A DNA stretch of 64,000 nt from Liolophura sinensis (taxonomy: Eukaryota > Mollusca > Polyplacophora > Chitonida > Chitonidae). Made by a program: the position numbers and the translations under genes. Numbering within the stretch: the first letter of the stretch is position 1; each line of letters opens with the position of its first letter. The stretch lies in NCBI RefSeq assembly GCF_032854445.1, contig NC_088305.1, positions 16,541,717 through 16,605,716 of the forward strand. The letters are read 5' to 3'. Under the pieces are notes generated by a model. The model made no database searches, had not been told where the DNA came from, and was given only the letters and a program-made list of their open reading frames with translations. This document shows positions 20,931 through 50,299 of this stretch, piece after piece.

Positions 20931-21390
20931 CCACTATAATGTAATGATAGAGTAGATGTCTTGTCTTTGTAGGCCTGCACAATCAATGAGAAAAATCTAC
21001 TACATGCGTTCCCCCAGGGCTAGCCTTCAGACGCCTGTTTGATATCTAGGTATAAACAAATAAGTCAGAGGAGTGGATGTAGAGTGTATTTCATGCGACC
21101 TTATCGTGGCAAATTGAAATTACAAAACCCGCAGTAGAGAGTAGGTCTAAGTAGAATTTCACTTCTGCTACAGGTGCATGGTAAAGGGTACACAGGTTAA
21201 ATGTGACAAGGGAAATAACTTTGAACCACCCAACAATAAGCCGGAGCTCTCCTGAAAGATGAGGTACAAAAACACATCGTAACATGTGCGTGACCTTTGG
21301 CCTATTTCTTTGCATTGAAACCACGCCACGCCAAACACTCGCTGTCTATATTCGGTTGCGAAGAGACAGGTTATTGAACATTCTGCGAAG

Positions 21391-21405
21391 ATGTCGAACT
21401 CTGAG
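21391..21405 (+). CDS. DBI: ACBP exon 1 (start codon exon)
   Basis: ATG TCG AAC TCT GAG followed by gtaaga encodes MSNSE. The context GCGAAGATGT is acceptable for initiation. It joins in phase 0 to the exon at 25062, giving the MSxxExFxKAAEE pattern of ACBPs. I see no TATA box close upstream, and the 5' end is not defined. Confidence 0.85.
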
Positions 21406-24400
21406 GTAAGATAAAATGCTACTTGGACACCTGATGTTATCAAGTGTATAGTTCTGCCTAAATAGTTAAGTGTCATTTAGTTGATGTTAGCTCCAATTTT
21501 TTTTTTTACCTCGCCGGGTCGATCACGATAGGATGAATCACTGTCATGTTCTGTTCATTGCAGGTCATATCAACGGCCGTTTGTGATGTTTTGGTTAAAA
21601 ATAAGATATTTATTTATTTTCCTCTTGGCCAGGAACAGAAAAAAACTTACAATAGATGCATGTAAGTGTAAGATATATAGGTTTATATCCATGTGCAGTT
21701 TCAAATCTAGGCAGTGTTAGTCTGTATTCTTTAGAATCTTCGAACACGCATGTAGTCTAGTTGCGGAATGCAACTGTCTGTATCGGCCAACACGAAGTGA
21801 TTGGAGAGTTACGGGGAAAAACTGCTTCTGATGTGTTAGGTCGAGCGTAAGCCACATTTACCGCCTCTTTACACGCAGAATGTTCCCTAGCGCAAATCGA
21901 TGTGAATCGAGTGGTCCCCATATAGGCCATAATCAACAAACCTGTTCTGAGTCTCGCCGAACCAACAACAATCAACGATAACTGCACAAGTTCACAAAAT
22001 AAATACATTTTTTATGAGGATGCGGTAAATGGGGCATACCGTCGATCCGACACATTAGAAGCAGTTATTCCCCATAACTCTGCCAGTACTTTTTGTTGGT
22101 TGATACAGAAAGTTACAGGCCTGTGCTATGTAAATTCACACCTGTACACATAGACAGCTAGTGGAAATAGCAACTTTGTCCCAGGCCTTTTTTGAGGGAG
22201 TGTACCTTAGTCAAATGATTGCTCTGACGTTCGGCTAGGCAATGTTTTCTTCAGCCAAGGATGGCTCCAACCCAATGTCAAAATGTGTTCCATTTGAAAA
22301 CCTGATGCAGTTGCCTGCTCTTGCCAAATATGTTGAAGCTGTCAGTGGTAATAATGGGTGGCTTTGAGCGTTACCAAATAATCTCAGGGGTCACATGGAC
22401 TAAGAAATAACCTATCAGCTTTGTGCTTGCTGACTTTAAGCCATAGAAACATATTTGATCGGTAACTTCAGTCTCAAATTACCATGGCAACTGCTTCAGG
22501 TTTTTAAATGGGGCACATTCTGACATTGGTTTTGGGGCATCTTTGGCCCCCCCCCAAAATTCTGTCAAACATAACCGAGTAATTTGGCCTCTGCCTCTGT
22601 GGGTGCTTTTGATTTCTAGCTAGTAGTCTGTTAAAGGTATGAAAAGAAAACAAAAAGTGAGAAATCTCAAGTTTATCTGTATTAATGAACATTCATTTTT
22701 AAATTAAAGTGCGAAGTTTTTAACCATCGTCATGAATTATGTACGTGCACGTAGCAGGATTTGTGCAGAGGGAGACTCTGAGAGTGAGGGAACAGCCATT
22801 CTCTGGTTGATTACGACTGATAGTATGCAGCATGAGATCCAGAGAGTAACCTGAATATTTGTGTTAAGTTACAGTATGTAACATGGTGACAAAATGTTTG
22901 AGCGTGTAACTGCAAAAGTTACTGCAGCCTGTTGTCATAAATAAACAGAACTGTGACGGCTGTATCAGTAACACACTACTTGTACATTCAAGTTGTCATG
23001 GTAACAGGGTGCATTTGAGTGAGTAAATAAATAAGTAAATACTACATGTGCTAAAGGTTTGTATTTATATGCTTGGTTCCATTGAATATGAAGAACGCAA
23101 AAAACATCTCTAATTTTTGTTTTGTTTTTCTAGTATTTATTCCCCAGTATTTTCTATCAGGTGGTAGTTTTGTACTTGTGCATAGCCCTATATTTGGCTT
23201 ATTTATTTCCTGTAAATTCTGTTGCCTGCTAGCCTAGTCAGTGTTAGTACAGGTCCAGGGCATAGGGCTGTGTCTATTTGATCGAGGGGTGTGCAGATGG
23301 AAAGGTGCGGGTGTTTGGAAGTTGTGGCAACATTCGGGTTCTTGAAATATCTGCATACGTCCATGCCACTCGTATATCTGTTTGCGCTGTCTTGCGCTCG
23401 TAGAAGGCCACTCATCTATTGCCAATATGGTGTTCATATCTGTTCATCGCATGTGTGAAAGTTCATCAGTACCTTGCCAAAGGTCAGTGGTTTTTCCTAG
23501 GACACTCCTGTTCCTTCACTCATAAAACTGCATGACCACCATCGAATAAGTGAAATTTTTAGTATTGCACTGCGCAACAGTATATAATTACAGAAATACT
23601 TACCTACATGCATGGGGCCTCCGTGGCTCAGTTGGTTAGCGCGCTAGCGCAGCGTAATGACCCAGGAGTCTCTCACCAATGCGGTCGCTGTGAGTTCAAG
23701 TCCAGCTCATGCTGGCTTTCTCTCCGGCCGTATGTGGGAAGGTCTGTCAGCTACCTGCGGATGGTCGTTGGTTTCCCCCGGGTTCTACCCGGTTTCCACC
23801 CACCATAATGCTGGCCGCCGTCGTATAAGTGAAATATTCTTGAGTACGGCGTAAAACACCAATCAAAAAAAAAAAAAAAAAAAAAAAAAAACCTACATGC
23901 ATGCATACTTATTTGTTACATTGCACATGTGCAGATGTTTAGGTGTTTAGGTGTTTTGCACTCCCATGTCTCTGAGTTCACTCCCTGAAATTATCCTGCT
24001 TGATTGGCAGATGTAGGTGGTAATCCTGAATTCATCAAAATTGTCTAGGATGAACAATCAAACTGTTGATAGTCTGGATAACCCAGTGTCCTAAGGCTTT
24101 ACATTGTGTTATATTTAAGATGTTTTTCAGGTAGGAACAGATTTCAGGGAAATAAAACTTAATATTTCAGGTTTTAAATATTTTTATTTTTTTTATTTTG
24201 CTTTTTAAATGAAATATCTATGTCTGGATTTACAAGTAAGACAAACACTTACCCACATGAAGTTATTGCCGGTTATATTATATATGTAGCAGACTATAAG
24301 AAATGAATAGGAAAGTATTAATTCTTAAAAATAAAACAAAATATACAATGTACCAAAAACGATTTGGGGCATTATGGTGTAACATTTCTCTTAAAAATAT

Positions 24401-27400
24401 GGTTGTGTAAAAAAACAGTCGTGTAGCAGAGCACGTAATCAGTGTTAATCTCTGGTTATATCTGTTCTCAAGGTCAGGTATTTGAAAAAGTTTCTACTAC
24501 ATATACCTCACTGACTTTAAGTAGGGATTCGCCAACTTATGTGGTGTGCACGTCTCCCCAATTTGATACACAGGTTGGTCACTTGTAACAGACTCTTTTG
24601 ATAAGGTCAAAGTCTGCCTAAATGTTAGCGTTGCTATAAAGACTTGTTCAGATAAATTTGCAATGTACACATTAATAAATTAAGCAAACACTGCCTAAAC
24701 TACATGAACATGTGTGTGTGTTGCGCACTTGCTTTAAGTCTGTTTAAGTTTGCTCCAGTCCTCAAACAATTCCTCAAGTCCTTCCCTTCATCACAACAGG
24801 GTTAGCTCGTTCATATAAATTTATAACGCACTCATTGGCTGAGTGGTCTAGAGTGCTGCAACATTCGACCAATGATTTTGAGGGTTAAAATACTGGCTTT
24901 GGATCGACTGCATCTAATGTCCCTCCTTTCATTCTTGTGGCAGCGCTACTTCTGATTCCATACTTGGCGAAAGCTCATTATGTCACAAAAAGATTGAAAA
25001 CCATTCAAGTTTTTAAGCAAATAAATTTTAATTTTAACTGACTTTTGTGTTTCTTTTCAAGGCATTCCTGAAGGCTGCTGAAGAAGCAAAGCAGCTTAAG
25101 TCTGAGCCATCTCAGGAAGATATGTTAGAGTTGTACTCGTACTACAAGCAGGCTACAGTCGGAGATGTCAACACAGGTACGAGAGAATAAGGCACACATT
25201 ACAGGTCATAATAGTGGATGTCAACACAGGTACGAGAGAATAAGGCACACATTACAGGTCATAATAGTGGATGTCAACACAGGTACGAGAGAATAAGGCA
25301 CACATTACAGGTCACAATAGTGGATGTCAACACAGGTACGAGAGAATAAGACACACATTACAGGTCATAATAGTGGATGTCAACACAGGTACGAGAGAAT
25401 AAGGCACACATTACAGGTCACAATAGTGGATGTCAACACAGGTACAAGAGAATAAGGCACACATTACAGGTCATAATAGTAGATGTCAACACAGGTACGA
25501 GAGAATAAGGCACACATTACAGGTCACAACAGTGGATGTCAACACAGGTGCGAGAGAATAACGCACACATTACAGGTCACAACAGTGGATGTCGGCATTG
25601 GGGCTAGAGAATAACTAACATATTACAGGTCACAACAGTCAGTGTCAGCATTGGTTCTAGAGAATAACGCACACATTACAGGTCACAACAGTGGATGTCA
25701 GCATAGGTGCTAGAGGATAACGCACACATTACGGGTCACAACAGTGGATGTCAGCATAGGTACTAGAGAATAACGCACACATTACGGGTCACAAGAGTGG
25801 ATGTCAGCATAGGTGCTAGAGAATAACACCCACATCACAGGTCACAACAGTGGATGTCAGCATAGGTGCTAGAGAATAATGCACACATTGCAGGTCACAA
25901 CAGTGGATGTCAACATAGGTGCTGGAGGATAACGTGCACATTACAGGTCACAACAGTGGTTGTCAGCATAGGTTCTAGAGAATAACCCACACATTACAGG
26001 TCACAGTAGTGGATGTCAACATTGTTGCTAGAGAATAACGCACACATTACAGGTCACAACAGTGGTTGTCAACGTAGGTGCTAGAGCATAACCCACACAT
26101 TATAGGCCACAACAGTGGATATCGGCATTGTTGCTAGAGAATAGCACACACATTACAGGTCACAAGAATGGATGTCACCATTGGTGCTAGAGAATAACGC
26201 ACACATTACAGGTCACAGCAGTGGATGTCAGCATTGGTGCTAGAGAATAACGCACACATTACAGGTCACAACAGTGGTTGTCAACATAGGTGCTAGAGAA
26301 TAACGCACACATTACAGGTCACAACAGTGGATGTCAGCATAGGTGCTAGAGAATAACGCACACATAAGAGGTCACAACAGTGGTCGTCAGCATAGGTGCT
26401 AGAGAATAATGCACACATTACAGGTCACAACGGTGGATGTCAGCATAGGTGCTAGAGAATAACGCACACATTACAGGTCACAACAGTGAATGTCAGCATA
26501 GGTGCTAGAGAATAACACCCACATTACAGGTCACAATATTGGATGTCAGCATAGGTGCTAAAAAATAATGCACACATTACAGGTCACAACAGTGGTTGTC
26601 AACATAGGTGCTAGAGAATAACGAACACATTACAGGTCACAACAGTGGATGTCAACATAGGTGCTAGAGAATAAGGCACACATTACAGGTCACAACAGTG
26701 GATGTCAACATAGGTGCTAGAGAATAATGCACACATTGCAGGTCACAACAGTGGATGTCAGCATAGGTGCTAGAGAATAACGCACACATTACAGGTCACA
26801 ACAGTGGATGTCAGCGTAGGTGCTAGAGAATAACACACACATTACAGGTCACAACAGTGGTTGTCAACGTAGGTGCTAGAGAATAACGCACACATTACAG
26901 GCCACAACAGTGGATGTCGGCATTGGTGCTAGAGAATAGCACACACATTACAGGTCACAAGAGTGGATGTCAGCATTGGTGCTAGAGAATAACGCACACA
27001 TTACAGGTCACAGTAATGGATGTCAGCATTGGTGCTAGAGAGTAACACCCACATTACAGGTCACAATATTGGATGTCAGCATTGGTGCCAAAGAATAATG
27101 CACACATTACAGGTCACATCAGTGGTTGTCAGCATAGGTGCTAGGGAATAACGCACACATTACAGGTCACAACAGTGGATGCCAGCATAGGTGCTAGAGA
27201 ATAACGCACACATTACAGGTCACAACAGTGGATGTCAGCATAGGTGCTAGAGTATAACGCACACATTGCAGGTCACAACAGTGGATTTCAGCATAGGTGC
27301 TAGAGAATAACGCACACATTGCAGGTCACAACAGTGGATGTCAACATAGGTGCTAGAGAATAGCGCACACATTACAGGTCACAACAGTGGTTGTCAATAT

Positions 27401-29476
27401 AGGTGCTAGAGAATAACGCACACATTACAGGTCACAACAGTGGTTGTCAGCATTGGTGCTAGAGAATGACTCACACATTACCGGTCACAACAGTGGTTGT
27501 CAGCATAGGTGCTAGAGAATGACGCACACGTTACAGGTCACAACAGTGGATGTCAGCATAGGTGCTAGAGAATAACGCACACATTACAGGTCACAACAGT
27601 GGATGTCAACATAGGTGCTAGAGAATAACGCACACATGACAGGTCACAACAGTGGATGTCAGCATAGGTGCTAGAGAATAACACCCACATTACGGGTCAC
27701 AACAGTGGATGCCAGCATAGGTGCTAGAGAATAACGCACACATGACAGGTCACAGCAGTGGATGTCAGCATAGGTGCTAGAGAATAACACCCACATTACA
27801 GGTCACAATGGTGGATGTCCGCATTGGTGCTAAAGAATAACGCACACATTACAGGTCACAACAGTGGATGTCGGCATTGGTGCTAGAGAATAGCACACGC
27901 ATTACAGGTTACAACAGTGGATGTCATCATAGGTGCTAGAGAATAGCACACACATTACAGGTCACAGTAGTGGATGTCAACATTGGTTCTAAAGAGAATA
28001 ACGCACACAGGTCACAGTAGTGGATGTCGGCATTGGTGCTAGAGAATAACGCACACATTACAGGTCACAATGGTGGATGTCCGCATTGGTGCTAAAGAAT
28101 AACGCACACATTACAGGTCACAACAGTGGATGTCGGCATTGGTGCTAGAGAATAGCACACGCATTACAGGTCACAGTAATGGATGTATAGGTGCTACACA
28201 ACTGCTCTGTTATTATTGTAAGTGTACTAATTGTTTGATAAACTGTTTACAGAACGCCCTGGAATGCTGGATTTTAAGGGAAAAGCAAAATGGGATGCAT
28301 GGTCCAGCAGGAAGGGTGAGTCTTTCGCTTGATCATATTGTGATTTTTAAAGTGACAACTTAAAAAGAACAGGATCGTTGGAGACATAAAGTTATCTAAA
28401 ACTGCATGTGCAGTATTTATTTCTTTTTAAAGTCACTTTTCAGATTATTATTGACTGAATAAAACTGACTTCAATACATAAATTCTTGGATACCAGGGCT
28501 TTATGTATAACGTTTGACGCCAGTGACGTGCAACCAAGTTTTTTTTACTTTCATGTTCATCTTTCGGTGAAATTATATTTTTTCTCTTTAGCACAAAAAA
28601 GAGCCTATCCAACATTAAATGTGGTATTTCAAGTCCACTTCATGCTGGCTTCCTCTCCCACCGTATGTGGGAAGGTCTGACAGCAACCTGCGGATGATCA
28701 TCGGTTTCATATGGGCTTTGATGGGTTTTCTCCCACAATAATATACAGTCGCAACAGTCATAGAAGTGAAATATTCTTGAGTGCGGTGTAAAACACCAAT
28801 CAAATAAACGAATAAAAAAATTGAATATGGTATTGATGAAGTGTGTCATTGACATCACAGAGAGATCCAAAATGGCTACCATATCACTGAAACCTTTAAC
28901 TAATCTGTAAAGTTCTCATTTGTCTACTGGGACCTCCATGGCTCAGTTGGTTAGCGCAGCATAATGACCCAGGAGTTTCTCACCAATGCGGTTGCTCTGA
29001 GTTCAAGTCCAGCTCATGTTGGCTTCCTCTCCGGCCGTACTTGGGAAGGTCTGTCAGCAACCTGCAGATGGTCGTGGGTTTCCCCCGGGCTCTGCCCGGT
29101 TTCCACCCACCATAATGCTGGCCGCTGTCGTATAAGTGAAATATTCTGGAGTACGGCATAAAACACCAATCAAATAAATAAATAAATAAATCATTTGTCT
29201 ACTGGCAGTTTACTTCATCTTTTTGTTTTTTTAAAAGTAACAAATTTGCTGTAACATTTGAAATTTATTTCCAAGAAATAATCTTTCAACACATTGAATA
29301 TCTGTTTCACACATGGGTTGAAGCCGAAAGTGTAAAAACAGTGAATAGGCTGTGGAAAAGATGTGATTATATTAGTCTTGAGCTGTATTTTTACAACAGG
29401 TATTTCAAAGGAACAAGCTGAATCAGCCTATATAGCCAAGGTAGAAAGTTTGAAGACAACTATTGGGCTGAAGTAA
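21391..29476 (+). CDS. DBI: Acyl-CoA-binding protein (ACBP / diazepam-binding inhibitor), 4 exons
   Basis: Exons 21391-21405, 25062-25176, 28253-28315 and 29400-29476 join in phase into an 89-residue protein, the usual ACBP length. ACBPs are cytosolic four-helix proteins that bind medium- to long-chain acyl-CoA esters and keep an intracellular pool for lipid metabolism. The signature [19 protein letters not shown] is followed by GKAKWDAW. Ligand-binding residues known from bovine ACBP (Tyr28, Lys32, Lys54, Tyr73) correspond to Tyr30, Lys34, Lys56 and Tyr75, all present. The start MSNSE is the typical short N-terminal exon, spliced directly after codon 5. No signal peptide or extra domain is seen, so this is the short cytosolic form. 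Intron 2 is swollen by a 3-kb minisatellite, and introns 1 and 3 carry SINEs. Confidence 0.96.
21406..23394. other. ACBP intron 1, first part, nothing recognised
   Basis: No repeat family or exon-like signal found; poly-T and poly-C stretches lie at about 21500 and 22550. Confidence 0.5.
23395..23580 (+). mobile_element. SINE-like copy with variant head (partner at 15583-15825)
   Basis: Blocks ccaatatggtgttcatatct, ggtcagtggtttttcc and accatcgaataagtgaaat match the order of 15583-15825, with much divergence. Confidence 0.5.
23615..23890 (+). mobile_element. tRNA-derived SINE, family A, full length with target-site duplication
   Basis: The head has an A-box-like tggctcagttggttagcgcg and a B-box-like gagttcaagtcc at tRNA spacing. 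The conserved body and a poly-A tail of about 30 A follow. A perfect 13-base duplication ACCTACATGCATG flanks it (23602-23614 and 23891-23903). That proves retroposition and suggests a young insertion. It lies in ACBP intron 1 in the sense orientation. Confidence 0.93.
23904..25061. other. ACBP intron 1, last part, nothing recognised
   Basis: AT-rich intron without clear repeats, ending in the tttctttttcaag acceptor region of exon 2. Confidence 0.5.
25062..25176 (+). CDS. DBI: ACBP exon 2
   Basis: This exon encodes [20 protein letters not shown] and then [18 protein letters not shown], i.e. helices 1 and 2 with Tyr30 and Lys34. The acceptor is tttcaag. The donor boundary GATGTCAACACAG/gtacgag is the sequence tandemly repeated in the following intron. 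Confidence 0.95.
25177..28198 (+). repeat. 53-bp minisatellite carrying reiterated 5' splice sites, ACBP intron 2 (~57 copies)
   Basis: The array starts at the first intron base. The unit is gtacgagagaataaggcaca, cattacaggtcataatagtg, gatgtcaacacag, and its last 13 bases equal the last 13 coding bases of exon 2. The first six or so units keep the exon-like gatgtcaacacag/gtacgag junction. Later units drift to gtcagcataggtgctagaga and ataacgcacacattacaggt, cacaacagtgg. It ends just before the intron's own acceptor region. Confidence 0.95.
28253..28315 (+). CDS. DBI: ACBP exon 3
   Basis: A 63-base exon after ctgtttacag and before gtgagt encodes [20 protein letters not shown] and the start of KG. 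This is the conserved [16 protein letters not shown] core with the CoA-contacting lysine. Confidence 0.95.
28630..28815 (+). mobile_element. SINE family A, 5'-truncated, in ACBP intron 3
   Basis: Starts at the B-box side (tcaagtccacttcatgctgg) and runs through gtgggaaggtctgacagcaa to gtaaaacaccaatcaaataa. Confidence 0.8.
28931..29190 (+). mobile_element. tRNA-derived SINE, family A, full length with target-site duplication, ACBP intron 3
   Basis: The head gacctccatggctcagttgg and gagttcaagtccagctcatg, the body and an (AAAT)n tail are all present. A 15-base perfect duplication TCATTTGTCTACTGG flanks it (28916-28930 and 29191-29205). Confidence 0.93.
29400..29476 (+). CDS. DBI: ACBP exon 4 and stop
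   Basis: After ttacaacag the frame reads [20 protein letters not shown] and TIGLK then TAA. This is helix 4 with Tyr75 of the acyl-CoA pocket and the family's usual C-terminal end. The 3' UTR end is not clear because AATAAA strings in the SINE tail near 29900 confuse polyadenylation signal calling. Confidence 0.94.
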
Positions 29477-29640
29477 GCTTTATAAAGGTAAACTCATTGT
29501 GTTAATTTCAAGTGAAGCCATTAGTTTTACTAATATCTTACTAAGTTTTCAAAAGAGCTATACTTGTAGTTGTATCCAATTATTGGCTTTAAAGTATGCC
29601 TGCCTTAAATTGCAATTTAAGATCATATTAAGAGCCAGTG

Positions 29641-29910
29641 TTGGCCTCCTTGGACAAAGTGGTTAGTGTGCCAGCACGGTGCAATGACCCAGGAGCCTCT
29701 CACCAATGAGGCTCCTATGAGTTCAAGTCCAGCTCATGTTGGTTTCTGCACTGGGTGTTCGTGAGGAGGTTTACTAGCAACTTGCTGAGGATTGTGGGTT
29801 TCCCCTCTCCTCTGCTCAGTTTCCTCCCACCATAATGCTGGTCAGCGTGGTATAACCGAAATATTCTTGACTACAGGTGTATGTGTTAAACATCAATCAA
29901 ATAAATAAAT
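29641..29910 (+). mobile_element. SINE family A, divergent full-length copy
   Basis: The head is altered (tggcctccttggacaaagtg, gttagtgtgcc), but gacccaggagcctctcacca, gagttcaagtccagctcatg and the AATAAATAAATAG end are present. It lies downstream of the ACBP stop, possibly within its 3' UTR. Confidence 0.8.
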
Positions 29911-30707
29911 AGTCACATTATTTTTTTGTCCCTGTTTATGACTTGTTCTATTGTGCTATGGCAGGGTCCGTCACTCTGTCATGTCTTGGGCATTGCCACC
30001 AGATATGCAGAATCGTTTGACTTCCAAGTTACACAATTTATTCACTTTGTGTCTCTAACAGCCGAGAAGAAGGCCGTTGAAAATGAGTTTCATCTCTCCA
30101 AAAACACCAGTCATATATCACCATGTAAATCATGTGAAGTTGATACATGCAGGTGTAACACAAATGCACTTAATTTATACAGGCACTATATTTATTTTTT
30201 CAGATTCCAGTAGGTGTGAGACTGGACATTGGCCAAACATGTCAAAACACGATCAATTGTAAAAGTTTTATTTTCTTTTATTTTAAGATGAAATTTCTTA
30301 GCATTTGCTTTGTACTCTTTTGAGTACACGATTGACAGTGTTACAACATTGCAGTTGATTTTGCATTTTGATACCAAATGTACCCATTAATATTCTAATC
30401 ACAGAAAATCTGTATTATTCAAATTCGATATAGCATTTGATTACAGCACTCATGTCCGTTCGTCAAGCTGTATGATTAATTTAACGTTTACTCAAATTTT
30501 AGATTGCCTTTTAATAACGTATTCATGGTATAAAATACAGTCCTGTATTTCCGGTAAATTTCTATGATATAATCAAACTGAATTCTAAATTATACTAGCA
30601 ACTATTTCATACATTTGCATCTCTCAACAATAAATTATTGGCTTTAAAGATTGTGTATGATATAATTTCTCTTAGTTTGTACTGAATGCAGGAGCTAATT
30701 ACTGGTT
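29911..30707. other. ACBP downstream region, nothing recognised
   Basis: AT-rich. A tctctaacag/CCGAGAAGAAG junction at about 30060 looks like an acceptor, but the frame after it has no recognisable homology. Confidence 0.4.
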
Positions 30708-31015
30708 GTGAATTCAAATCCATCTCATACTGGCTTCGATTTCGTCTGTGGCCTAATGGTCAGAGCGTCCGCTTCGAAGGTGGGAGACCACAGGTTTAAG
30801 CGCCGGGTCGGGTCATACCAACAACTTTTAAAATGGTACTTGCTGCTGCCTCGTTTGGTGCTCAGCACTGAGAGGTTAGAGCAAGGACACTTGATTGGTT
30901 GACCCAGTGTCAGTATAACGTGACTGACTGGGATGTAATGTCTGGTGCCTTTGGCATAATACTTCAGTGGCGACAACACTTTGGCTGCGTTACCTTACCC
31001 CGCCACAAGAAGAAA
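30708..31015 (+). mobile_element. SINE family B (tRNA-like head) joined to a family A scrap
   Basis: 30708-30736 is a family A B-box scrap (gtgaattcaaatccatctca). From 30737 a different tRNA-like head follows, with tggcctaatggtcagagcgt and acaggtttaagcgccggg. The tail has ctgagaggttagagcaagga and cagtgtcagtataacgtgac. Tail similarity recurs at 43045-43110 and about 19305. Confidence 0.65.
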
Positions 31016-31075
31016 CGATATATGTACTCGCACACTTAATGACTGTTATTGTTATATAGCTTAATGCTTGTTAAA

Positions 31076-31349
31076 TACAGGGTCAAAACTCGATCAGCGT
31101 ATTACGATGATTATGTGCGACATTATTATCACGCCGGTAACTAGACCGTTTGGGAATGTTTTATAGCAAGGTTGGTCTCGAACAACGTGGCCTTTGTTTT
31201 CAGTCAGATGAATTTTTGTGTGAATGTCAGTTTATGTCGTATAACCCTACACGGATGATGGTGTCGGATCCTACGCCCATCATATGCGGATGGTATACCC
31301 ATCTTGACTGTATGATCGACCTATGATGTGAGCATCTTCCTGTGATATA
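31076..31349 (+). repeat. Duplicated ~275-bp block, copy 1
   Basis: It is collinear with 33161-33439 over its whole length. Shared strings include aaactcgatc, tgaatgtcagtttatgtcgt, cggatcctacgcccatcata and gatgtgagcatcttcctgtg. Confidence 0.82.
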
Positions 31350-31399
31350 GGGATCGAGCAGTACATACATTCATGCTTGTCATGCGGGCATCCTCTCTG

Positions 31400-31532
31400 T
31401 TCATGCGTGAAAGGGTCTGTCAGCTACCCGCGGATGGTCGTGGGCTCCCCAGCTCTGCACGGGTTCCTGCCTTTCACGTTGAACGCTCATCTATGAATGA
31501 ATTATTCTTGAGTACACCACTCAAATAAATAA
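31400..31532 (+). mobile_element. SINE family A 3' fragment, degraded
   Basis: gggtctgtcagctacccgcg, gatggtcgtgggctcc and attattcttgagtac followed by caaataaataa identify it. The middle of the tail is scrambled. Confidence 0.65.
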
Positions 31533-31789
31533 TTTCTTGGGCTGGAACATGTGATTGCAGCAAACCTTTCATTATGCCGAGATTTTCGTCTCTCATCAAA
31601 TATTAAAATGACTGATAAACAAGGAAAGGGAGAGTTATTCTGCTTGGTCGCACGTAACAGTGTAAGAACCCATTGCTCAGACAGGGTGAAGTGATCCCCC
31701 TGCCATCTTCACCACCATCCTTCATTGAGAAAATTTAGTACCTTGGGTAGGTGTTTTTTTTTTTTTTTGTTTTATCTTATTTCCTCTTG

Positions 31790-32345
31790 ATTTTGACTGG
31801 TTTCCTTTTGGCTATGATAGGTTTCATCTCGACTGACCGTTTTTTTCCGGGTTATGACTGGTTTCATCTCGACTGACACGTTTTTCTCCGGGTTGTGACG
31901 GGTTTCTTCTCGACTGACCGTTTTTCTCCGGGTTGTGACGGGTTTCATCTCGACTGACACGTTTTTCTCCGGGTTGTGACGGGTTTCTTCTCGACTGACA
32001 CGTTTTTCTCCGGGTTGTGACGGGTTTCATCTCGACTGACACGTTTTTCTCCGGGTTGTGACGGGTTTCTTCTCGACTGACACGTTTTTCTCCGGGTTGT
32101 GACGGGTTTCATCTCGACTGACCGTTTTCCTCAGGGCTGTAATGGGTTTCCTTTTGACTGACCGTTTTTCTCTATGCTGTGACGGGTGTTATTTTCCCTG
32201 ATTTCCTCTGATCTATGAGGGGTTATATCTTGACTCACCGTTTTCCTCTGGGCTGTGAGGGATTTTGTTTCGTCGGATTGTTTTCCTCTGGGCTGTGGCA
32301 GATTTTGTTTCGACTGACTTTTCCTCGGGGCTGTGGCAGAAGATT
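31790..32345. repeat. ~38-41-bp minisatellite, about 14 copies
   Basis: Unit ggtttcatctcgactgacac, gtttttctccgggttgtgac. Two variants (catctcgactgacacg and cttctcgactgaccg) alternate in the middle, a higher-order dimer of about 80 bases. It degrades toward 32345. Minus-strand open frames here are repeat translations. Confidence 0.9.
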
Positions 32346-33160
32346 TCATCTTTAACTCTTGTCTGGTTTTCCCACAAGTTCTATCAGTATACTGGAATAC
32401 TGGAGCAGGTGTGTTTAGATGTTAAATTCAGGGGCGGTAACTCTGCTGTAACCATTCTTTCAGCTGGATCGAAAATAATTGCTAAGTGATAGTTTGTTAC
32501 AACGTGAAGGTAGAATGGTAATTTTCAACACTTTATCAATTAAACAACAATCAAATGAATTAGTAAATTTAAATCGGGGTGGAACAGTGCTGATCTTGTT
32601 CATGTATTTATTGATGGTTTGGACCAGTGCTTCTGTGATTTTCGCTTACAGCGCTGCCCTATCCTAACGAGATACTCCACCCGTATCATCCGCCCATCCT
32701 ACGCGCATCTTGATCGGATCGGTGGGGCGGATCCTATGCGGGTTACATGTCCATGATGGATGGCCCATGCGCGGATGTTGGCACCATCCTGATTGGATCT
32801 TACGCGGATCTTGATCGGCCGGTACATGTAGTATCGTTTAGACCGTTTTACTTGGTAAGGCAGGCATGGTGAGGAGAAAAGTATTGGTGAATGGTTTATC
32901 ATTTGCCTTTCTCATTCAAAGCAGTAAAAAGGTGAGTTAGCCCAATGCATGAGTTTTGAGTTTCGCTTTCCCGTTTCTGGACAAAGTTTATTAGTGTCAG
33001 TTAAAATGTAAAATCGTAACCGCATTCCAGAACAACCGGAGACGTAAGTTCTCGCGAAAAGCCGTACTAATGTTATCCTTTCGTGACACTTAAATTATCA
33101 TATATAATTTCTGTTACAACTATACACTATATTAAGCACTTAATAGCGAATAATAGCTGA
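32346..33160. other. Intergenic; G/C-rich gcggatc-type motifs at 32690-32830
   Basis: Short motifs such as tacgcgcatcttgatcgg and gcggatcctatgcgg resemble parts of the duplicated block at 31260 and 33350. Nothing coding. Confidence 0.45.
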
Positions 33161-33439
33161 AACAGGCGAAACTCGATCTGCTTATTATTATAATTTTGTG
33201 CGAATTAGTAACCACGCCGGGAACTACACCGTTTGTGAATGTTCTACAATAAGGTTGGTGTCTAACAGCGTGGCATTTGTTGTAAATTAGATGAGTTTAT
33301 GTGTGAATGTTAGTGTATGTCGTAAAACCCTATGCGGATGATCGTCGGATCCTACGCCCATCATACTCGAATGGTACACCCATCTTGGCTGTATGATCGG
33401 CGTATGATGTGAGCATCTTCCTGTGATATTACTTCCTTC
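33161..33439 (+). repeat. Duplicated ~275-bp block, copy 2
   Basis: Partner of 31076-31349 in direct orientation about 2.1 kb away, with many substitutions. This indicates an old dispersed repeat or segmental duplication. Confidence 0.82.
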
Positions 33440-34200
33440 CTACGCGGATGTTCCGACCCACATCCGTTCCAGATATATCGTTAGGATCTAGCAGTATTGT
33501 ACAGGGCTTCGGCCATACTCCATATAGCGCATGCGTCGCTCTCTACACACGCTTGCATTACTACCACCTCTTGCAAATTTTGTACAGAACTCTTGAACAA
33601 CGTCACCGTGTAACAGAGAATAGGCGGTAAGTGTCATAAAACACAAATACTTTGTTTCTTATTAACTTTGTACTTTATAAACATGTATTTTCTTCATCTG
33701 AGGCATGTACAAATTGATTCTAACCAACACCTAAAACAATTTTATTGACGTAAGCTGATTAAAATAGTTCCTCGAGGTCAAGCTTGGTCAAGTTTGTCTG
33801 GTGGTTGCAGTGATGTAAAGCGAGCGTAGAGAGTGACATTAAGGGGTATGGACTACGGTCAGGGTCATAGGTGGAGGGAGCTTACCTCTTAATCTCTTGG
33901 GCTCTCGATCTAGGTGCGGTTTTAATGGCGTATTTGAAAAGGGCTTTAGTGACGCGTGTCTGTTGGCCTTGTCCAACGTTTGTTGAAGACCACTTCCACA
34001 GTGATACTGGTGTGCCCACATGTAGGTTTGTGGGAAAGTTAATTCGTCAGTGAGGTGTAGTATTTTCAGCTACCACCTGTTTAGTTATTTAATTGTTGTT
34101 TGCCATACTTCCTCAACTAAATAGGTATACATTGTTGGTCAGTATTCAACTATTTACTCCATGCTAAATGTGGGACATAGGTGGTGTTCGCGGAACGCTA
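33440..34200. other. Intergenic, no gene seen
   Basis: No supported coding or repeat feature before the 76-bp satellite. Confidence 0.5.
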
Positions 34201-34214
34201 AGCTTCACAAGCGG

Positions 34215-36597
34215 ACCTATATAAAAATCCACCGTCCAAGGCCAAATTTGAGCCCGCATCTGTTGGCTGCTATAACATCTTCACAAACGGTCATGTATGC
34301 AAATCCACTGTCCAAGGCCAAATGTGAGCCTGCACCTGGTGGTTGTTAGCACCTTCACAAACGGTCGTGTATGCAAATCCACTGTCCAAGGCCAAATTTG
34401 AGCCCGCATCTGGTGGCTGCTATAACATCTTCACAAACGGTCGTGTATGCAAATCCACTGTCCAAGGCCAAATTTGAGCCCGCATCTGGTGGCTGCTAGC
34501 ATCTTCACAAACGGTCGTGTATGCAAATCCACTGTCCAAGGCCAAATTTGAGCCCGCATCTGGTGGCTGCTATAACATCTTCACAAACGGTCCTGTATGC
34601 AAATCCACCGTCCAAGGCCAAATTTGAGCCCGCATCTGGTGGTTGCTATAACATCTTCACAAACGGTCTTGTGACAAATCCACTGTCCAAGGCCAAATTT
34701 GAGCCCACATCTGGTGGCTGCTAGGACATCTCCACAAACGGTCGTGTATGCAAATCCACTGTCCAAGGCCAAATTTGAGCCCACATCTGGTGGCTGCTAT
34801 AACATCTTCACAAACGGTCGTGTATGCAAATCCACTGTCCAAGGCCAATATTGAGTCCGCATCTGGTGGTTGCTATAACATCTTCACAAACGGTCGTGTA
34901 TGCAAATCCATTGTCCAAGGCCAAATTTGAGCCCACATCTGGTGGTTGCTATAACATCTTCACAAACGGTCGTGTATGCAAATCCACTGTCCAAGGCCAA
35001 TATTGAGCCCACATCTGGTGGCTGCTAGGACATCTTCACAAACGGTCGTGTATGCAAATCCACCGTCCAAGGCCAAATTTGAACCCACATCTGGTGGCTG
35101 GTAGGACATCTTCACAAACGGTCGTGTATGCAAATCCACTGTCCAAGGCCAAATTTGAGCCCACATCTGGTGGCTGCTATAACATCTTCACAAACGGTCG
35201 TGTATGCAAATCCACTGTCCAAGGCCAAATTTGAGCCCGCATCTGGTGGCTGCTATAACATCTTCAAAAACGGTCGTGTATGCAAATCCACCGTCCAAGG
35301 CCAAATTTGAGCCCACATCTGGTGGCTGCTAGGACATCTTCACAAACGGTCGTGTATGCAAATCCACCGTCCAAGGCCAAATTTGAACCCACATCTGGTG
35401 GCTGCTATAGCATCTTCACAAACGGTCCTGTATGCAAACCCACTGTCCAAGGCCAAATATGAGCCCGCAACTGGTGGTTGTTGTAACATCTTCACAAACG
35501 GTCTTGTAACAAATCCATCGTCCAAGGCCAAATTTGAGCCCACATCTGGTGGCTGCTGGGACATCTTCACAAACGGTCGTGTATGCAAATCCACTGACCA
35601 AGGCCAAATTTGAGCCCGCATCTGTTGGCTGCTATAACATCTTCACAAACGGTCGTGTATGCAAATCCACTGTCCAAGGCCAAATTTGAGCCTGCATGTA
35701 GTGGCTGCTAGCACCTTCACAAACGGTCCTGTACGCAAATCCACTGTCCAAGGCCAAATTTGAGTCTGCACCTGGTGGTTGCTATAGCATCTTCACAAAC
35801 GGTCGTGTATGCAAATCCACTTCCAAGGCCAAATTTGAGCCCGCATCTGGTGGCTGCTAGCATCTTCACAAAAGTGTATGCAAATCCACTGTCCAAGGCC
35901 AAATTTGAGCCCGCATCTGGTGGCTGCTAGCATCTTCACAAACGGTCCTGTATGCAAATCCACTGTCCAAGGCCAAATTGAGTCCGCACCTGGTGGTTGC
36001 TATAGCATCTTCACAAACGGTCGTGTATGCAAATCCACTGTCCAAGGCCAAATTTGAGCCCGCATCTGGTGGCTGCTAGCATCTTCACAAAAGTGTATGC
36101 AAATCCACTGTCCAAGGCCAAATTTGAGCCCGCATCTGGTGGCTGCTAGCATCTACACAAACGGTCGTGTATGCAAATCCACTGTCCAAGGCCAAATTGA
36201 GTCCGCACCTGGTGGTTGCTATAGCATCTTCACAAACGGTCGTGTATGCAAATCCACTGTCCAAGGCCAAATTTGAGCCCGCATCTGGTGGCTGCTAGCA
36301 TCTTCACAAACGGTCTTGTATGCAAATCCACTGTCCAAGGCCAAATTTGAGCCCGCATCTGGTGGTTGCTATAGCATCTTCACAAACGGTCGTGTATGCA
36401 AATCCATTGTCCAAGGCCAAATTTGAGCCCGCATCTGGTGGTTGTTATAACATCTTCACAAATGGTCGTGTATGCAAATCCACCGTCCAAGGCCAAATTT
36501 GAGCCCACATCTGGTGGCTGCTAGCATCTTCACAAACGGTCGTGTATGCAAATCCACTGTCCAAGGCCAAATTTGAGCCCGCATCTGGTGGTTGAAG
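34215..36597. repeat. 76-bp satellite, about 31 copies, one ATGCAAAT octamer per unit
   Basis: Unit atgcaaatccactgtccaag, gccaaatttgagcccgcatc, tggtggctgctataacatct, tcacaaacggtcgtgt. Copies are highly similar, with a few 70-73-base deletion variants (ctagcatcttcacaaaagtg). Stops are rare in several frames, so many overlapping 60-90-residue open frames appear on both strands. None is a gene. Confidence 0.95.
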
Positions 36598-36599
36598 GC

Positions 36600-37415
36600 A
36601 ATGGGGAACATTTCCCTCACAACTTTCGACTCAAATCCAAACTGAACTGACAACATTTTTTCTTGCATTGCCTGAATAATATGTTCCCGATTTTCTCACT
36701 AAACGTCGTCAGGAAGACAGTATTGAACACTAGACTATACGGCTGATGCTTGAATCACGTGGTGGGAAAGAATCCCCATTAGATCCCCAAGCATCTTAAT
36801 ATGTACCACCTTATAATCAAATCAAACTTTTGGTTATAACGAATGAATGTTATGTGCTGGGGACCGGGGTTTAATTCAGCCTTGGGGCATGTCTAATCCA
36901 GATCTGAAGTCCGACATTCGTATGCCAGTCGTAAACCACGAAGAGGTGTTCCAATTCGATAATAGTATTAGTCAATAGTCGTTTCTCTAAAACGGAAAAA
37001 GGAATGTGTAAGGAATATTATATGTAGATAGTAATTAAAGCTCGGAACATGTAATAGAGAAACAGATTTACACAGTGTACTTGATATACTTCCCAACCGA
37101 GATAGGACAAGCAATTTTAAGCGAAAGCCATAAGGGTTAAAGACTTGGCTTTTCTAGATTAAAGAAATCTGGCCGATCTAGGGGGTGATCAGACAAGCTT
37201 GCAGTGAACGGTGATGGGACACTTCCACTGGTGATAATTAGGTGCTGTGGAAATTGTTTTGTTTTGCTTTCGAAAGACGTTTTGTGTCTTCAGTGTCAAA
37301 TTTTTTTTCATGCATACTAGTTATAATTTTCTTCGTAATTTTCACATGGTTCTGGAATTTACCGAGTGATTTTGGATAATTAGGGTGTTCTCCTGTTCGT
37401 TACTTTGGTCCAAGG
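36600..37415. other. Intergenic, nothing recognised
   Basis: Single-copy-looking sequence between the satellite and the SINE. Confidence 0.5.
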
Positions 37416-37681
37416 GGCCTCTGTGGCTCAGTTGGTTAGCACATTAGCGCAGCTGTAATGACCCAGGAGTCTCTCATCAATGCGGTCGATGTGAGTTCAA
37501 GTCCAGCTCATGCTGGTTTCCTCTTCGGCCGTACGTGGGAAGGTCTGTCAGAAACCTGCGGATGGTCGTGGGTTTCCGGTGGGCTCTGCCCGGTTTCCTC
37601 CCATTATAATGCTGGCCGCCGTCGTATAAGTGAAATATTCCTGAGTACGGCGTAAAACACCAATCAAATAAATAAATAAAT
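37416..37681 (+). mobile_element. tRNA-derived SINE, family A, full length
   Basis: Head ggggcctctgtggctcagtt, B-box-like gagttcaagtccagctcatg, body and AAATAAATAAAT tail. Flanks show a near-perfect short duplication: ctttggtccaa before and ctttgtccaa after. Confidence 0.9.
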
Positions 37682-40600
37682 CCTTTGTCCAAAAACTGGT
37701 ATATTTGATCTCATGTTTTTAATGTCCATTATGTGTCTTGGGTTTTATTCCGTTTGAAAATAAAAAATTGGCTTGCTTACTTTCGTTTATAAAAGACAGT
37801 AGAACCACAGCAGTGACGAAAGTATGATAGATAGAAAACGGTAAAGCATGTTACTAGTAAAATCCATCCTCTTGTCAGTTTGACTCCAACTGTCCATCGT
37901 AATGCTTAAGTAGTAATAGCTTATACTTCCCCACCGCTTACCCCCCACCCCCACCCCTCCCAGCACCATGGCGTAAGTAGAATTAGGTAAAACAGAATGG
38001 GAAAATATATCGTCTTCTGACCACAAACAACTCAAAAGGAGCATAGTTAATTATGGCCTATTCATTCACTTGATTCATTTACACAACGCTTCCGAGCTGT
38101 GGTAGACATTACCGTCTCTTAACCGTACATGCAGGCTAGCCTGTGCCAGCGAGCATACGATAACGTATGAGTAACGAGAATTTAGCGTGCTTGCTTGCAT
38201 CAGGACTGGCATATTAATAGCAACTATATACGGGTAATATCCTTCAATATACAGGATAAGGTCAGTCAAGGTCTGACAAGGTCATTACCCGCAATGTTCT
38301 CCAGTAATTATCGTCACAATTGTTACAAGAAACGTTACAGGACACACGCGTCTTACCGACACTTATAACTCGTCCTGAATGTGTTAGAACAGCATAGTTT
38401 GGGAGACCTCGCTTCACTCTGTCCAGAGGGCATGTCCCCTCAGAACTTATCTGTAAGGAGCAAAGTCGTTAAGCCATGGTAGATTCGAATCGCCAAGACA
38501 CACGAGGTGTATGTTAAAACCAGGCCTTGGAATGCGAATTCGCAACCCCCCAACTCCTTACTCGTCGCGGGCCATGCAAGTGACTTTTCCTTTGCGAAAC
38601 ATACAGTTTCTTGTAAACATGCAGAAATACATATATGCTTCTCAACCTTCTTATGAAAGTGTCTTATAAGCGTACCAATTATTTACTGTGTAATACAAAT
38701 ATGGTTTAATTAGCTGCCAGCAGTTAGTCGGACAGGCAATGTCAGTGATCAAGGTTGTGAACCGCGTCAAACCAACTACCAGAGAGGGCAGCGTAGGGCC
38801 CTGAATAAGTAGTTTTATATCCAGCCTCTCTAAGTCATTATTGTTGAAACGTTGCTAAACAGTCAGTAATCTAGATGGTACAGGATAAATGAGTTGATAA
38901 AGTGACGTTTGTCTCATGGCACAACTTGATCTTATTCGTGAGATCTAATTTAACTTTCTCCATTTTTACCCCATTATCATTGAAAGGGCATAAAGTAAAT
39001 TAGAAGCGATACTCTTACCGTCAGTTATGAGCCAAGGTGTTGTTTGACCTTAGAGCTAGTGTACAAGTACTTTGACGACTACGTATCCATTGGGTACTGA
39101 AAAGCATGTGATGTGTATTGTTTTAAAGGGTACATTCAAAGAATCTCTAAAGAGAAGATTATGCCCTTAATGGTAATGAAAAAAAAAATGGAAAAAGTCA
39201 TATTTTATCACCACTTAATAACTTCTTTATTTATAGCCATAATCTCCGTCACTGGTCAAATATTTTCGGAGATGACGTCATCGATGAACTCATTGGGAAC
39301 GCTGGACCAACTTAAGGGTCTCTCTCTTTCAACCCCCAGCCCCCAACCTTAGCAAAATTGCTTTCACTCGTATAACCTTTAGCGACATGACTGCAGGCCG
39401 ATAAGTTCCGGAAAGACCACTGGGGCTTTAGAAACATAAGAGTTAAAGCAATTGTACACACCAAATAGAAAGCCCAGAAAGCTTTCGTATGTTGGGACAC
39501 ATCCTAAAATGCACGTTTAAGCTTTAACGCTGACCATGTGGTTTTTACTCCGGGGACACCCTTCAGAAAGCGGTTTCACCGTTTAATCTTGAAACCCAAA
39601 TTAAACTCTCAAATATATCGATCAAACCGATAAAATGTTGCCAGCTGATGTCCATCATGTGGGAGATCCAACTTCAAATATTTTGTTTTGTCAAGAAGAA
39701 TTAAGTTTTGGACGCCCAAAATGGCGTAGTGAACGAGGCCCCAGGAATTAGTTATACATGTGGTCCTTCAGACAGTGTTCTTCCACAGATACTGATACGC
39801 AGTGCAATGTATTGTCATCAACAAACGCATTCATCTGACTGCCATTAGCATAGAGTGGCATATCTTCTATCAACATTAAAGTATAAGACTGGGGAAGCTC
39901 AGTTGACATGGTCATATTGTCGGAAAAACAATTATCGTAATAAACGGATTGCTTTCCATGAGAGAGGTACGACCTGGTCAATTCTATAGCGCGCTATCGA
40001 TAAAACCATATATTTTAGGTTTGTCCATTAATATTTTATGGCTGGCGAAGTGAAACGTTTTTCGAAGGTCAATAGAGTAGACCACACGATGAAACAATTG
40101 TCAGTTTGGTGCTTCAACGAATCTATCATGGCTATCATAACCGTTTGATAATAACGGAATTATGATAATTAATGTGTTACATTCTAGCTTGCTGTATAGT
40201 GCTAAACAAAATCTTTTTGAAAACTTTCCTTTTTAACCAGATATATCACTGAAGATATGTTTCTTAAAACTTTTTTTTAAATTGTTGTTTTAAACCTCTT
40301 ATTTTCTGCCATGGCTGGAACCACTTCAGGACTCAAATAATAGACATGAGTTATCCTTCCACAAAATGTATGTTTCGAACATGTAGAAGATCTGTGATAG
40401 GGAACTGGATCCAGGAACTCAGTTCACTTTTTCGTTATGGCCTAAATGGCAAAATTATGTATATTGACAATATAAAATCCGTTTACCCACAAGATTTTAA
40501 CGTAACACAACCGTTCAAATGTCACCATGGAAGTCATGGTTTGAGGAAGTTTAATAAAATGTCAAATTCTTAGTAACACAAACGTCAGCAGCCTTGTAGC

Positions 40601-41404
40601 GGTGTTACATGCACTTCTTCTAAAATATTAAGTGATGTCACACCCACTTCTAGACATTTTGTGTACCGCCCCAGGTGATCGGTGTGTATCAAGAACATCC
40701 CATTTTCAACCAATCAGAACCATGTGAAATTCGGGAAAACCATTCATCATCATTGGTATGGGAATTCCAATGGGTACAAATTGTGCTTATGTTTTATGTT
40801 ACAACTACAGTTCTCTTGTAAATGTATTTGCGCGGAGTGTTCAGAATTTCTGGCGCTCTGTTTCATAATTGTGTCGAATTCCGCTTATCCCAGGATCAGG
40901 GTGTTCACACTCATCACGTTGGGTAAGATCATCGCGATGGATTTATGAACAGTCGCAAACAAAGCGCAACTGATATACATATTTTGATGAACGGCCACTT
41001 ATATACTATCAGAATACTTATATTATATAATATAATAAAATACTCACTTCATCTTCGCGTCATTTTAGTGCATCCGTTCTAATTTCTTATTGTATATACT
41101 TTCTTAGTGCTGAACGTTTTTTTTTTTGTTTTTTGTTTTTTGCTCTTATTCACCTGAAACGCCCATTCTGGTTGACGACTTGTATGCGGGTATCTGTTTC
41201 CACGCCCAGATAATTTAGACACTTGCGCTAAACATACACAGATTTCCAAACGCTCTGTTGTTTATGATACATATAGGTTCATAGCGGTACAACTATTTTA
41301 ATTGAAAGAAAAGTACCTACTTTTTTGTTATGCTACCTGGGGTACCATTTCGAGCAGGTGCTATGGTGATTTTGGTTCAAGCTGACTTGACATTTGGTTT
41401 CTTA
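37682..41404. other. Intergenic, no supported gene
   Basis: 3.7 kb with only fragments: the dispersed block agcaccatggcgtaagtaga at about 37962, and a repeat piece at about 38465-38560 (gattcgaatcgccaagacac, acgaggtgt) related to 19195. Open frames at 39113, 40346 and 40682 show no recognisable domain. Confidence 0.5.
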
Positions 41405-41409
41405 TCACC

Positions 41410-41510
41410 AATGAGTTGTACACAATACCCATGAGTTGTACGCGTTACCCATGAGCTGTAAACGTTACCCATGAGCTGTAAACGTTACCCACGAGTTGTA
41501 CATGTTACAA
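41410..41510. repeat. 22-bp tandem repeat, about 5 copies
   Basis: Unit acccatgagttgtacacgtt with ct/tt and ac/aa variants. Confidence 0.8.
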
Positions 41511-41744
41511 GTTTAGCCACAAAAATGTCACACGCAAAGCCAGGAATGAGTAACAGACTCTCCGGATTAATTTTGCCCACCGTGTACAACAAATTCTGCA
41601 CTCTGCATCTAACATTTCGCATACGCTTCATATTTGTGCGTGGCCGTCTTACATTTATATTCACTGATATTTTGCTACATTGCTCTAATTTAGTACTTTC
41701 TTGGGAACAGTTCGTGGCAATGGGGGTCAAAATGTCTTTCAGCC

Positions 41745-42040
41745 GTTGGGATACACGAGGCGGTAGTTCAGTCCGGGCCTTGGGCAGCTCCAGGGATCCG
41801 AATTTGTAGATTCCCCGCTCTCACAATTCTTTGGACCTTGGTGACAAGCGGTTGACGACTCTCGCGTGTCTGTACAGCCTTACCTTCATTGTCTTCCCCT
41901 TGGTATGACTTGCATATCTGTACAGCATAGTCTGCCTGTATATAACTTCCCTGTAAGGTACATGTTGGTATTTTACAGCGGTTTTCTTCACCAGTAAGAC
42001 TGTTCTGTATTGTATAAGCGCACATTTCCTGACTATGGCA
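41745..42040 (+). repeat. Dispersed-repeat fragment
   Basis: acacgaggcggtagttcagt, ccgggccttgggcagc and tagattccccgctctcac echo 19200-19275. The following ttggtgacaagcggttgacg, ttgcatatctgtacag echoes 15590-15690. It looks like a degraded SINE mosaic. Confidence 0.45.
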
Positions 42041-42194
42041 TTAAACAAGAGTAAAAAATTTAAAGTTTATGACATCTGTCATCAGGTCCACAAACTCATT
42101 TGTTGTATAAATAATGAGCTTAAAGGTAAAGGTAAAAAAAAAACCAGATGAAGATACACAGGAAATAATCAGTTTATAAATGTATAACAAGTTT

Positions 42195-42330
42195 AGGATC
42201 TGACCTTGACGTTTTTAACCTTGAAAGTATAATGTGGTCAGCATATGACCTTGACTTATGGAACCTTGAAAGCATTTCGTGGTTAGGCCCTGACCTTGGG
42301 ATTTTTTACCTTGAAATTTTTACATTGTTC
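42195..42330. repeat. ~47-bp tandem repeat, 3 copies
   Basis: Three units of the form ctgaccttgacgtttttaac, cttgaaagtataatgtggtc with substitutions. Confidence 0.65.
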
Positions 42331-42917
42331 TTGAAAAAGCAACCAACTGTGGAAATGGGAAGCCTTTATCTTCTTTCCTGTGGACGAGTAACCTACCACC
42401 GTATCGAATAGTTGTTATCTTGTAATTTTCGCGCTGAACACGTGTGAGGGACCAGTAGTTCTGCATCAGATTTTATGACCTGACAGATTGCAGAAGGCTC
42501 TGAGTCTGGCCTCGTAAAAACAGCTTTCCCTTGATGTGTTATAGGTCAGCTTTACGAGACACACTTAACTTTGAGGGTCATTCTCAGTCGACAGCCTCTT
42601 TACTGCTCGGAGTGTTTTGGCTGTGCAAAATGATGGGCTGGTTAAATGGTACCCTTCGGCAGTCCAACCTAACCCGGCTGATTCCCTACCAAGACCCCAA
42701 GTTACAATCGAGCTAGGAAGTCTGGCTTTATCAATGCGGCTTGGGGAAGGTTTGGCTCGGTTGATTTATCTCACAAAAGTCTAGATCACCAGACAGGCTT
42801 GCTGCTTGATTCTATAATTTTACCGGTCAACAGAAGTAGGTTCATTGTTTTTATTTGTTATTTTGTGTACGGACCTGGTGGTAGCTATGTAGAGGAGCCT
42901 ATGTAGGCCATTTCACT

Positions 42918-43125
42918 GGATGCGTTGGCGTAGTGATTGGAGCGTCTCCTCCATTAACGATATATCCGGGAGTTCGATCTCCCATCATGTCAATCAGCTA
43001 AAACTTTAACTAATGTAACATTGGCACTTCATGGCTTGGCGCTCCGCATAAGAGGAGCAGGCCATTTACTGGTCGGTCCGGTGTCAGTATAATGTGGCTG
43101 GTGTCTTCGAAATGGCCATCCAGTG
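42918..43125 (+). mobile_element. SINE family B-like, tRNA-derived head
   Basis: The A-box-like tggcgtagtgattggagcg and B-box-like gggagttcgatctccc lie at tRNA spacing. The tail ggtgtcagtataatgtggct matches 30910-30930. I do not call it a tRNA gene because the arms do not fold fully and the tail is SINE-like. Confidence 0.6.
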
Positions 43126-50268: not shown

Positions 50269-50299
50269 ATATGCATACAAAGCTGTTGTAATCGACAGA

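Follow-up and report, generated by a model that had tools for sequence, protein, structure and literature searches.

The kind of array described here is already known, and human ABCA7 provides a close published precedent. Intron 18 of that gene carries a variable-number tandem repeat (VNTR) with a 25-bp unit whose first two bases are the GT of the donor site (PMC5954066). In the excerpted sections of that report, an isoform that retains one unit shifts the reading frame and is put at 2 +/- 1% (a figure assigned by its order in the passage), its level is constant across VNTR sizes, which speaks against array length tuning donor choice, and longer VNTRs go with more skipping of exon 19 and lower expression. 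As far as the excerpts of the respective papers go, tandem repeats that span exon-intron boundaries and alter splicing have also been described in human duplicated genes (PMC2812944), and in the model of intron gain by tandem duplication both splice sites come from the duplicated segment (PMC4974935).

Intron 2 of an acyl-CoA-binding protein (ACBP) gene of the chiton Liolophura sinensis resembles each of these systems in part. Like the ABCA7 VNTR, it holds an intronic tandem array that flanks an exon and includes the real donor, since the first unit of the array (unit 0) contains both the end of exon 2 and the donor that follows it. The excerpts on ABCA7 mention no coding bases in the unit, whereas the ACBP unit has 13; they report an isoform that uses the donor of the next unit, with a frame shift, whereas the ACBP counterparts are predicted products; and they report measurements of length variation, exon 19 skipping and expression, whereas the ACBP array is known from sequence alone. 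The human duplicated-gene repeats likewise span an exon-intron boundary, but the excerpt presents them as differences between recent paralogues, often forming novel introns (PMC2812944), whereas the ACBP acceptor lies outside the array. Tandem copies carrying splice signals and exon bases are common to the ACBP array and the intron-gain model, but that model, as excerpted, makes a new intron (PMC4974935), whereas at ACBP an intron with its own acceptor was enlarged. What L. sinensis adds is a unit that includes coding bases, near-identical donors in a block and the recurrence of such arrays in several genes, at both exon edges. We found no report of exon-edge arrays in chitons in the open-access literature; the word "tandem" does not occur in the excerpted text of the chiton genome paper (PMC11068029), and neither "tandem repeat" nor "minisatellite" occurs in the five-genome chiton paper (PMC12005716).

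The ACBP gene and the anatomy of its second intron

The window, the whole 64,000-nucleotide stretch of DNA that was analyzed, lies at 16541717-16605716 of C11, a scaffold of 32,819,725 bp in an assembly of 609,464,459 bp and 632 contigs (609.5 Mb and 632 scaffolds in the excerpted genome paper; PMC11068029), the species name of which has been amended from Liolophura japonica to L. sinensis (PMC12441733). The spliced ACBP product (89 aa) is identical over its full length to the NCBI acyl-CoA-binding protein-like entry of L. sinensis; it matches the Pfam ACBP family at 111.5 bits, and solved ACBP structures align with its residues 6-87. Because of this identity over 89 aa, the exon 2 boundary holds, and the protein model (a model, not reads) agrees with the 13 bases at the exon end being coding, as a first-pass annotation of the sequence had proposed. 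The features of the locus are as follows.

21391-21405, plus strand: ACBP exon 1 (spliced-exon model)
25062-25176, plus strand: ACBP exon 2 (spliced protein identical to the NCBI ACBP-like protein)
25164-25176, plus strand: end of ACBP exon 2, the exon half of unit 0 (13 nt, GATGTCAACACAG)
25164-28196, plus strand: 53-bp array, 57 units and a decayed partial unit (TRF, unit segmentation)
25164-25587, plus strand: exon-like edge block, units 0-7 of the array
25177 (true donor), 25230, 25283, 25336, 25389, 25442, 25495 and 25548, plus strand: donors of units 0-7
25177-28252, plus strand: ACBP intron 2, 3,076 bp, nearly all array
25588-28181, plus strand: drifted interior, units 8-56 (49 units), with weak donor-like sites
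28182-28196 (end approximate), plus strand: decayed partial unit
28197-28252, plus strand: unique 3' end of intron 2, 56 bp, with the acceptor
28253-28315, plus strand: ACBP exon 3 (spliced-exon model)
29400-29476, plus strand: ACBP exon 4 (spliced-exon model)

TRF called the array with a 53-bp period at 25164-28186 (57.1 copies), and cutting it into units gave 57 (0-56), of which 56 are exactly 53 bp and one, unit 53, is 50 bp. The first-pass claim of a 53-bp array in intron 2 that carries copies of the exon end and its donor is confirmed. That annotation had the array start at the first intron base; the homology instead begins 13 nt inside exon 2, such that unit 0 consists of the exon end GATGTCAACACAG (25164-25176) and the intron from the true donor at 25177 onward. 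The unit tail CAGGTCACAACAGTG resembles, by eye, the codons upstream of the 13-base exon end and was not counted as homology.

The 13 coding bases are exact in all seven of units 1-7 and in none of the 49 units 8-56. The 9-mer of the true donor, CAGGTACGA, is exact in five of the seven copied units (1-4 and 6), the variants being CAGGTACAA in unit 5 and CAGGTGCGA in unit 7, so the donor has indeed been copied in tandem. The remaining units, which the annotation had put at about 50, number 49; their consensus is GATGTCAGCATAGGTGCTAG, and 46/49 keep the GT. Of the 13 exon-end bases, this drifted consensus still matches 11. Among 13-mers drawn from the part of the window outside the array and compared with any rotation of the unit, 0.06% match as well, and chance is no serious alternative for the exon-end match.

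At the other end of the intron lies TACTAAT (28225-28231), which we take to be a branch-like motif. The acceptor is also outside the array, 56 bp past its decayed end. That the intron itself was created by an AGGT-type tandem duplication is a very unlikely reading: the unit does contain AG|GT and exon bases, but the acceptor and the branch-like site do not come from it, and intron gain by tandem duplication, which takes both splice sites from the duplicated segment, is disfavored for this reason.

An assembly artefact in a repetitive stretch deserves almost no credence. Coverage was modest, at 14x HiFi in the excerpted genome paper (PMC11068029), and units 0-6 are near-identical, hence their count could be wrong; but the mean read given in the same excerpts, 8,347 bp, is longer than the 3-kb array, and units 8-56 differ from one another by about 6 of 53 bases.

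Origin of the array and probable growth at the exon edge

The direction of change was read from relatives of the ACBP protein. A search found 1,327, and among the 120 listed, Asn-Thr stands at the exon 2 end in 110/110 that were readable there (10 were not), whereas the drifted units would encode Ser-Ile at this position. Because Asn-Thr is found in all of these readable relatives, the exon state is ancestral, and the array derives from the exon junction. The founding duplication therefore straddled that junction. The sequence shows both the anatomy given above and an origin that took in coding DNA, as the first-pass annotation had suggested from the 13 bases, which are exact in units 1-7.

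Divergence among the units has a marked structure. Over 53 bases, the mean pairwise difference is 1.7 in units 0-6 and 6.0 in units 8-56, and units 0-7 differ from units 8-56 by 8.6 bases on average. Of 47 windows of seven units, units 0-6 are the least diverse; away from the edge block, the minimum is 3.9. Seven columns (8, 11, 16, 18, 28, 46 and 49) separate the edge from the drifted consensus, of which columns 8 and 11 are exon derived and columns 16 and 18 are donor positions +3 and +5; with three of the seven in the nine donor columns, there was no significant enrichment there (P = 0.086). Unit 7 is a hybrid of the exon-like and drifted types. Over all units, the distance to unit 0 increases with position (rho = 0.40, P = 0.003), but within units 8-56 no such trend was found (rho = 0.09, P = 0.56). 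The gradient claimed in the first-pass annotation therefore stands in that the exon-proximal edge is distinctive; its form is a step between units 7 and 8. In a midpoint-rooted maximum-likelihood tree of the 56 full-length units, units 0-7, 0-6 and 0-5 form a nested series (bootstrap 100, 98 and 98), which fits recent growth at the edge better than a gradient.

Taken together, these data lead us to assign a probability of roughly three in four to an exon-anchored minisatellite, founded by a junction-straddling 53-bp duplication and grown to about 57 units, with growth at the exon edge renewing exon-like units. The founding tandem duplication would have spanned the junction of exon 2 and intron 2, taking in 13 coding and 40 intron nucleotides, and would have been tolerated because the copy on the exon side left the codons intact and a donor in place. 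Expansion to about 57 units would have followed, the interior units drifting freely while selection on the protein and the splice site fixed the exon half of unit 0, so that growth at the exon edge would give fresh exon-like units. The latest such growth would have produced units 0-6, and two-unit steps may have had a part in it, a hint of which comes from one site only, column 46, with T,T,C,T,C,T,C,C across units 0-7. That the growth was recent and at the exon edge is inferred from the unit tree, in which its direction depends on midpoint rooting, outward drift from the exon giving the identical order. Minisatellites with polar mutation at one end are known, and the ACBP array resembles them in the apparent activity of one end; unlike theirs, its active end is pinned by an exon, and the activity is deduced from sequence.

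The first-pass annotation had proposed that homogenization or selection acts at the exon-proximal edge. Selection is needed only for the coding bases and donor of unit 0; homogenization is possible and not required. Gene conversion among the first units, or outward from the exon, without recent growth, could account for the sharp boundary at unit 8 and for the hybrid unit 7. Yet the likeness covers all 53 bases and not the exon half alone, and a nested ladder in positional order is what duplication gives directly; we regard edge homogenization as a tentative alternative, with perhaps a minority chance of being correct.

We simulated arrays under simple models in which the first unit was fixed and duplication and deletion were unbiased. 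Of the arrays kept, 35% (105 kept of 250) or 5% (79 of 250) had runs of at least seven exon-like units, so an exon-like run by itself can arise without a special process at the edge. None of the kept simulated arrays (0/105, 0/79 and 0/1) combined a uniform edge with an interior as mixed as that of the real array. In a separate simulation run, the exon-like runs were no longer with unit 0 fixed (26% of 35 kept arrays) than without (38% of 50). These models would favor edge-concentrated growth only weakly.

A search of the assembly with a query of 237 bp from the start of the array returned 18 overlapping matches, all in the ACBP array itself, the one candidate place. An introner or dispersed transposable element is not supported, that 237-bp query having found no dispersed copies. 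RNA folding of the first units was ordinary (z = 0.14), and Rfam gave no match in window positions 21300-29600.

Predicted splicing from the copied donors

In computed translation, splicing from each of the seven copied donors yields one and the same 47-aa truncated product ending in GDVNTGTRE. Donor strength was scored with a human weight matrix applied to these chiton sites; on that scale, 7.6 bits is the score of the true donor and of the donors of units 1-4 and 6, against 7.5 bits for unit 7 and 3.8 bits for unit 5, while the 46 drifted units that keep GT average 1.1 bits. The first donor is most likely the one spliced. By analogy with the human ABCA7 case, from which we infer the outcome at ACBP, splicing now and then from a copied donor would lengthen the transcript by n x 53 nt and bring in an early stop, and the resulting 47-aa product would probably be degraded.

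The donor copies might instead have been selected, as back-up or decoy donors or because truncated transcripts control dosage. The donor copies that directly follow the true donor, five of them exact and two near-exact, would suit such a role, as would the single truncated product that all of them yield. Most units have nonetheless lost donor strength (mean of 1.1 versus 7.6 bits on the human matrix), and the drifted units show no conservation of the exon-derived columns, in which the nonconsensus rate is 0.095 versus 0.059 for columns 20-53. In the excerpted ABCA7 report, moreover, one-unit retention is unchanged with array size (PMC5954066). A selected function is accordingly improbable in our estimation.

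Eight identical or near-identical donors at 53-bp steps behind a single exon constitute a natural experiment on how the spliceosome chooses among equivalent sites, as do the roughly 40 acceptor copies ahead of one exon in another gene, described below. RNA-seq data for L. sinensis are publicly listed under SAMN35319765-SAMN35319769, and HiFi data under SRX20411988.

Exon-edge arrays in other genes

Four further exon-edge arrays were found in other L. sinensis genes, two at donors and two at acceptors. The first donor case lies in the window, in a GABA transporter 2-like (SLC6) gene:

10668-10768, plus strand: SLC6 exon ending ATTCACTGTG (join verified against NCBI protein P0121)
10761-11152, plus strand: 32-bp array starting 8 nt inside that exon (TRF)

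The exon matches Pfam SNF at 19.9 bits, below the cut-off of 27. The array junction is TCACTGTG|GTAAGTTATC, its units carry GTG|GTAAGT-type donors, and related 32/63-bp repeats continue beyond it at about 11291-12013. Another array in an SLC6 intron, at 4111-5155, is not derived from its donor and was rejected.

The second donor case (a), found in a search of the ACBP family, is an ACBP-domain gene on C5, with a peroxisomal D3,D2-enoyl-CoA isomerase as its top structure match. Its array, of 40-bp and then about 43-bp units, starts 19 nt inside the exon and has CAG|GTGAG-type donors, the first copy matching at 27/30. A candidate next exon continues the protein (DDAQLQYIKIVEEL), with a weak ECH_1 match (15.5 bits, cut-off 27).

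At acceptors, case (b), met by chance while a donor was being viewed, is an SLC6 gene (C8) with a 2,119-bp intron that contains 41 copies (18/30 or better) of the acceptor and exon start. The exon part of the repeat covers the 24 nt (GGIYWLQL) with which the next exon begins, and Pfam SNF confirms that exon at 57.5 bits. This array is the mirror image of the ACBP donor array; one tRNA-like SINE copy sits within it. In case (c), an SLC6 gene (C10), there are about three 53-bp copies, which include the acceptor and roughly the first 29 nt of the exon; one copy is clear at 17/20, the other is more decayed, and SNF confirms the exon at 61.4 bits.

Frequency was approached in two ways. Within the window, the NCBI L. 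sinensis GABA transporter 2-like protein sets seven more introns, giving 10 with known ends, and we scored recurrence of each splice-site 20-mer at 15/20 or better within 1.5 kb. The donor 20-mer recurs in two of the 10, at 25 positions in ACBP intron 2 and at 27 in the transporter intron at 10769; this proportion of two in 10 is no unbiased rate because one of the two was the starting finding. Acceptor recurrence was found in 0/10, the probes for ACBP introns 1 and 3 having been placed one base too far downstream (correct ends 25061 and 29399; donor probes were right). Pfam searches of the plus strand at 29501-44500 and 49001-64000 gave no gene usable for further introns.

The second approach was a survey of SLC6 exons, comprising the first 40 stop-free by E-value of 109 PF00209 matches, less one paralogous duplicate. 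At least two copies of the picked donor were present in 0/39, which is a lower bound because the donor was picked as the best-scoring GT near the match end, only 23/39 picks score at least 6.0 bits, and the true donor may lie outside the surveyed slice, as shown for L036. Two of the 39 (L036 and L048) have arrays close behind the exon without the donor inside, L036 being the donor side of case (b). On the acceptor side, 1/20 internal exons had an array, namely case (c). With 0/39 on the donor side, 1/20 on the acceptor side and cases (a) and (b) besides, exon-edge arrays are uncommon but recurrent in the L. sinensis genome, at both edges.

Distance trends in the three other arrays tested were weak or absent, with rho = -0.31 (P = 0.06) in the transporter, rho = -0.51 (P = 0.09) in the C5 gene and rho = -0.11 (P = 0.51) at the C8 acceptor; only ACBP therefore shows a clear exon-like edge block. 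A tolerated duplication straddling an exon edge covers the donor and acceptor cases without special function; in each, the site used would be the copy nearest the exon, and the remainder would be free intron. Recent growth at the exon edge is what the ACBP block seems to add to this general mechanism.

It is possible, though we would not favor it, that such arrays form a recurrent class in this chiton, in which exons act as fixed seeds, introns repeatedly grow copies of donors and acceptors, and array length alters the amount of correctly spliced mRNA. If exon edges commonly seed arrays, introns would have one more way to grow, one in which splice signals are copied, and expression may change with array length, as the ABCA7 excerpts report. 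Arrays of this type are easily mistaken for an ordinary intronic minisatellite.

Several arrays were left uncounted. In L048 (G000:C4:16881130-16881670), a 41-bp array begins about 10 nt after the SLC6 donor without containing it; it runs through most of the slice. A 73-bp array with CAG|GTAAAG units at 58340-58952 of the window (minus strand) lacks proof of an exon, Pfam giving no convincing domain on the minus strand at 49001-64000; upstream of it, a possible short exon, NEQRVMVVTDR, follows TTGCAG, with no domain support. Repeated CAG|GTATGA with TA-rich spacers in L028 at 80-380 (G000:C4:5000000) has no exon upstream by eye.

Other repeats were seen in passing. Three perfect 51-bp tandem copies lie about 1 kb from an ACBP-family match (L013 at 2569-2722, G000:C1), and a 30-bp array of 51 units on the minus strand of the window (61007-62543) is open in long frames (MYNKQRSRVI-type repeats). 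Copies of a tRNA-like SINE, one of which is the copy within the C8 acceptor array, were recognized by eye in the window at about 23617-23890 and 28930-29195 and on the minus strand of L052 at about 1770-2040.
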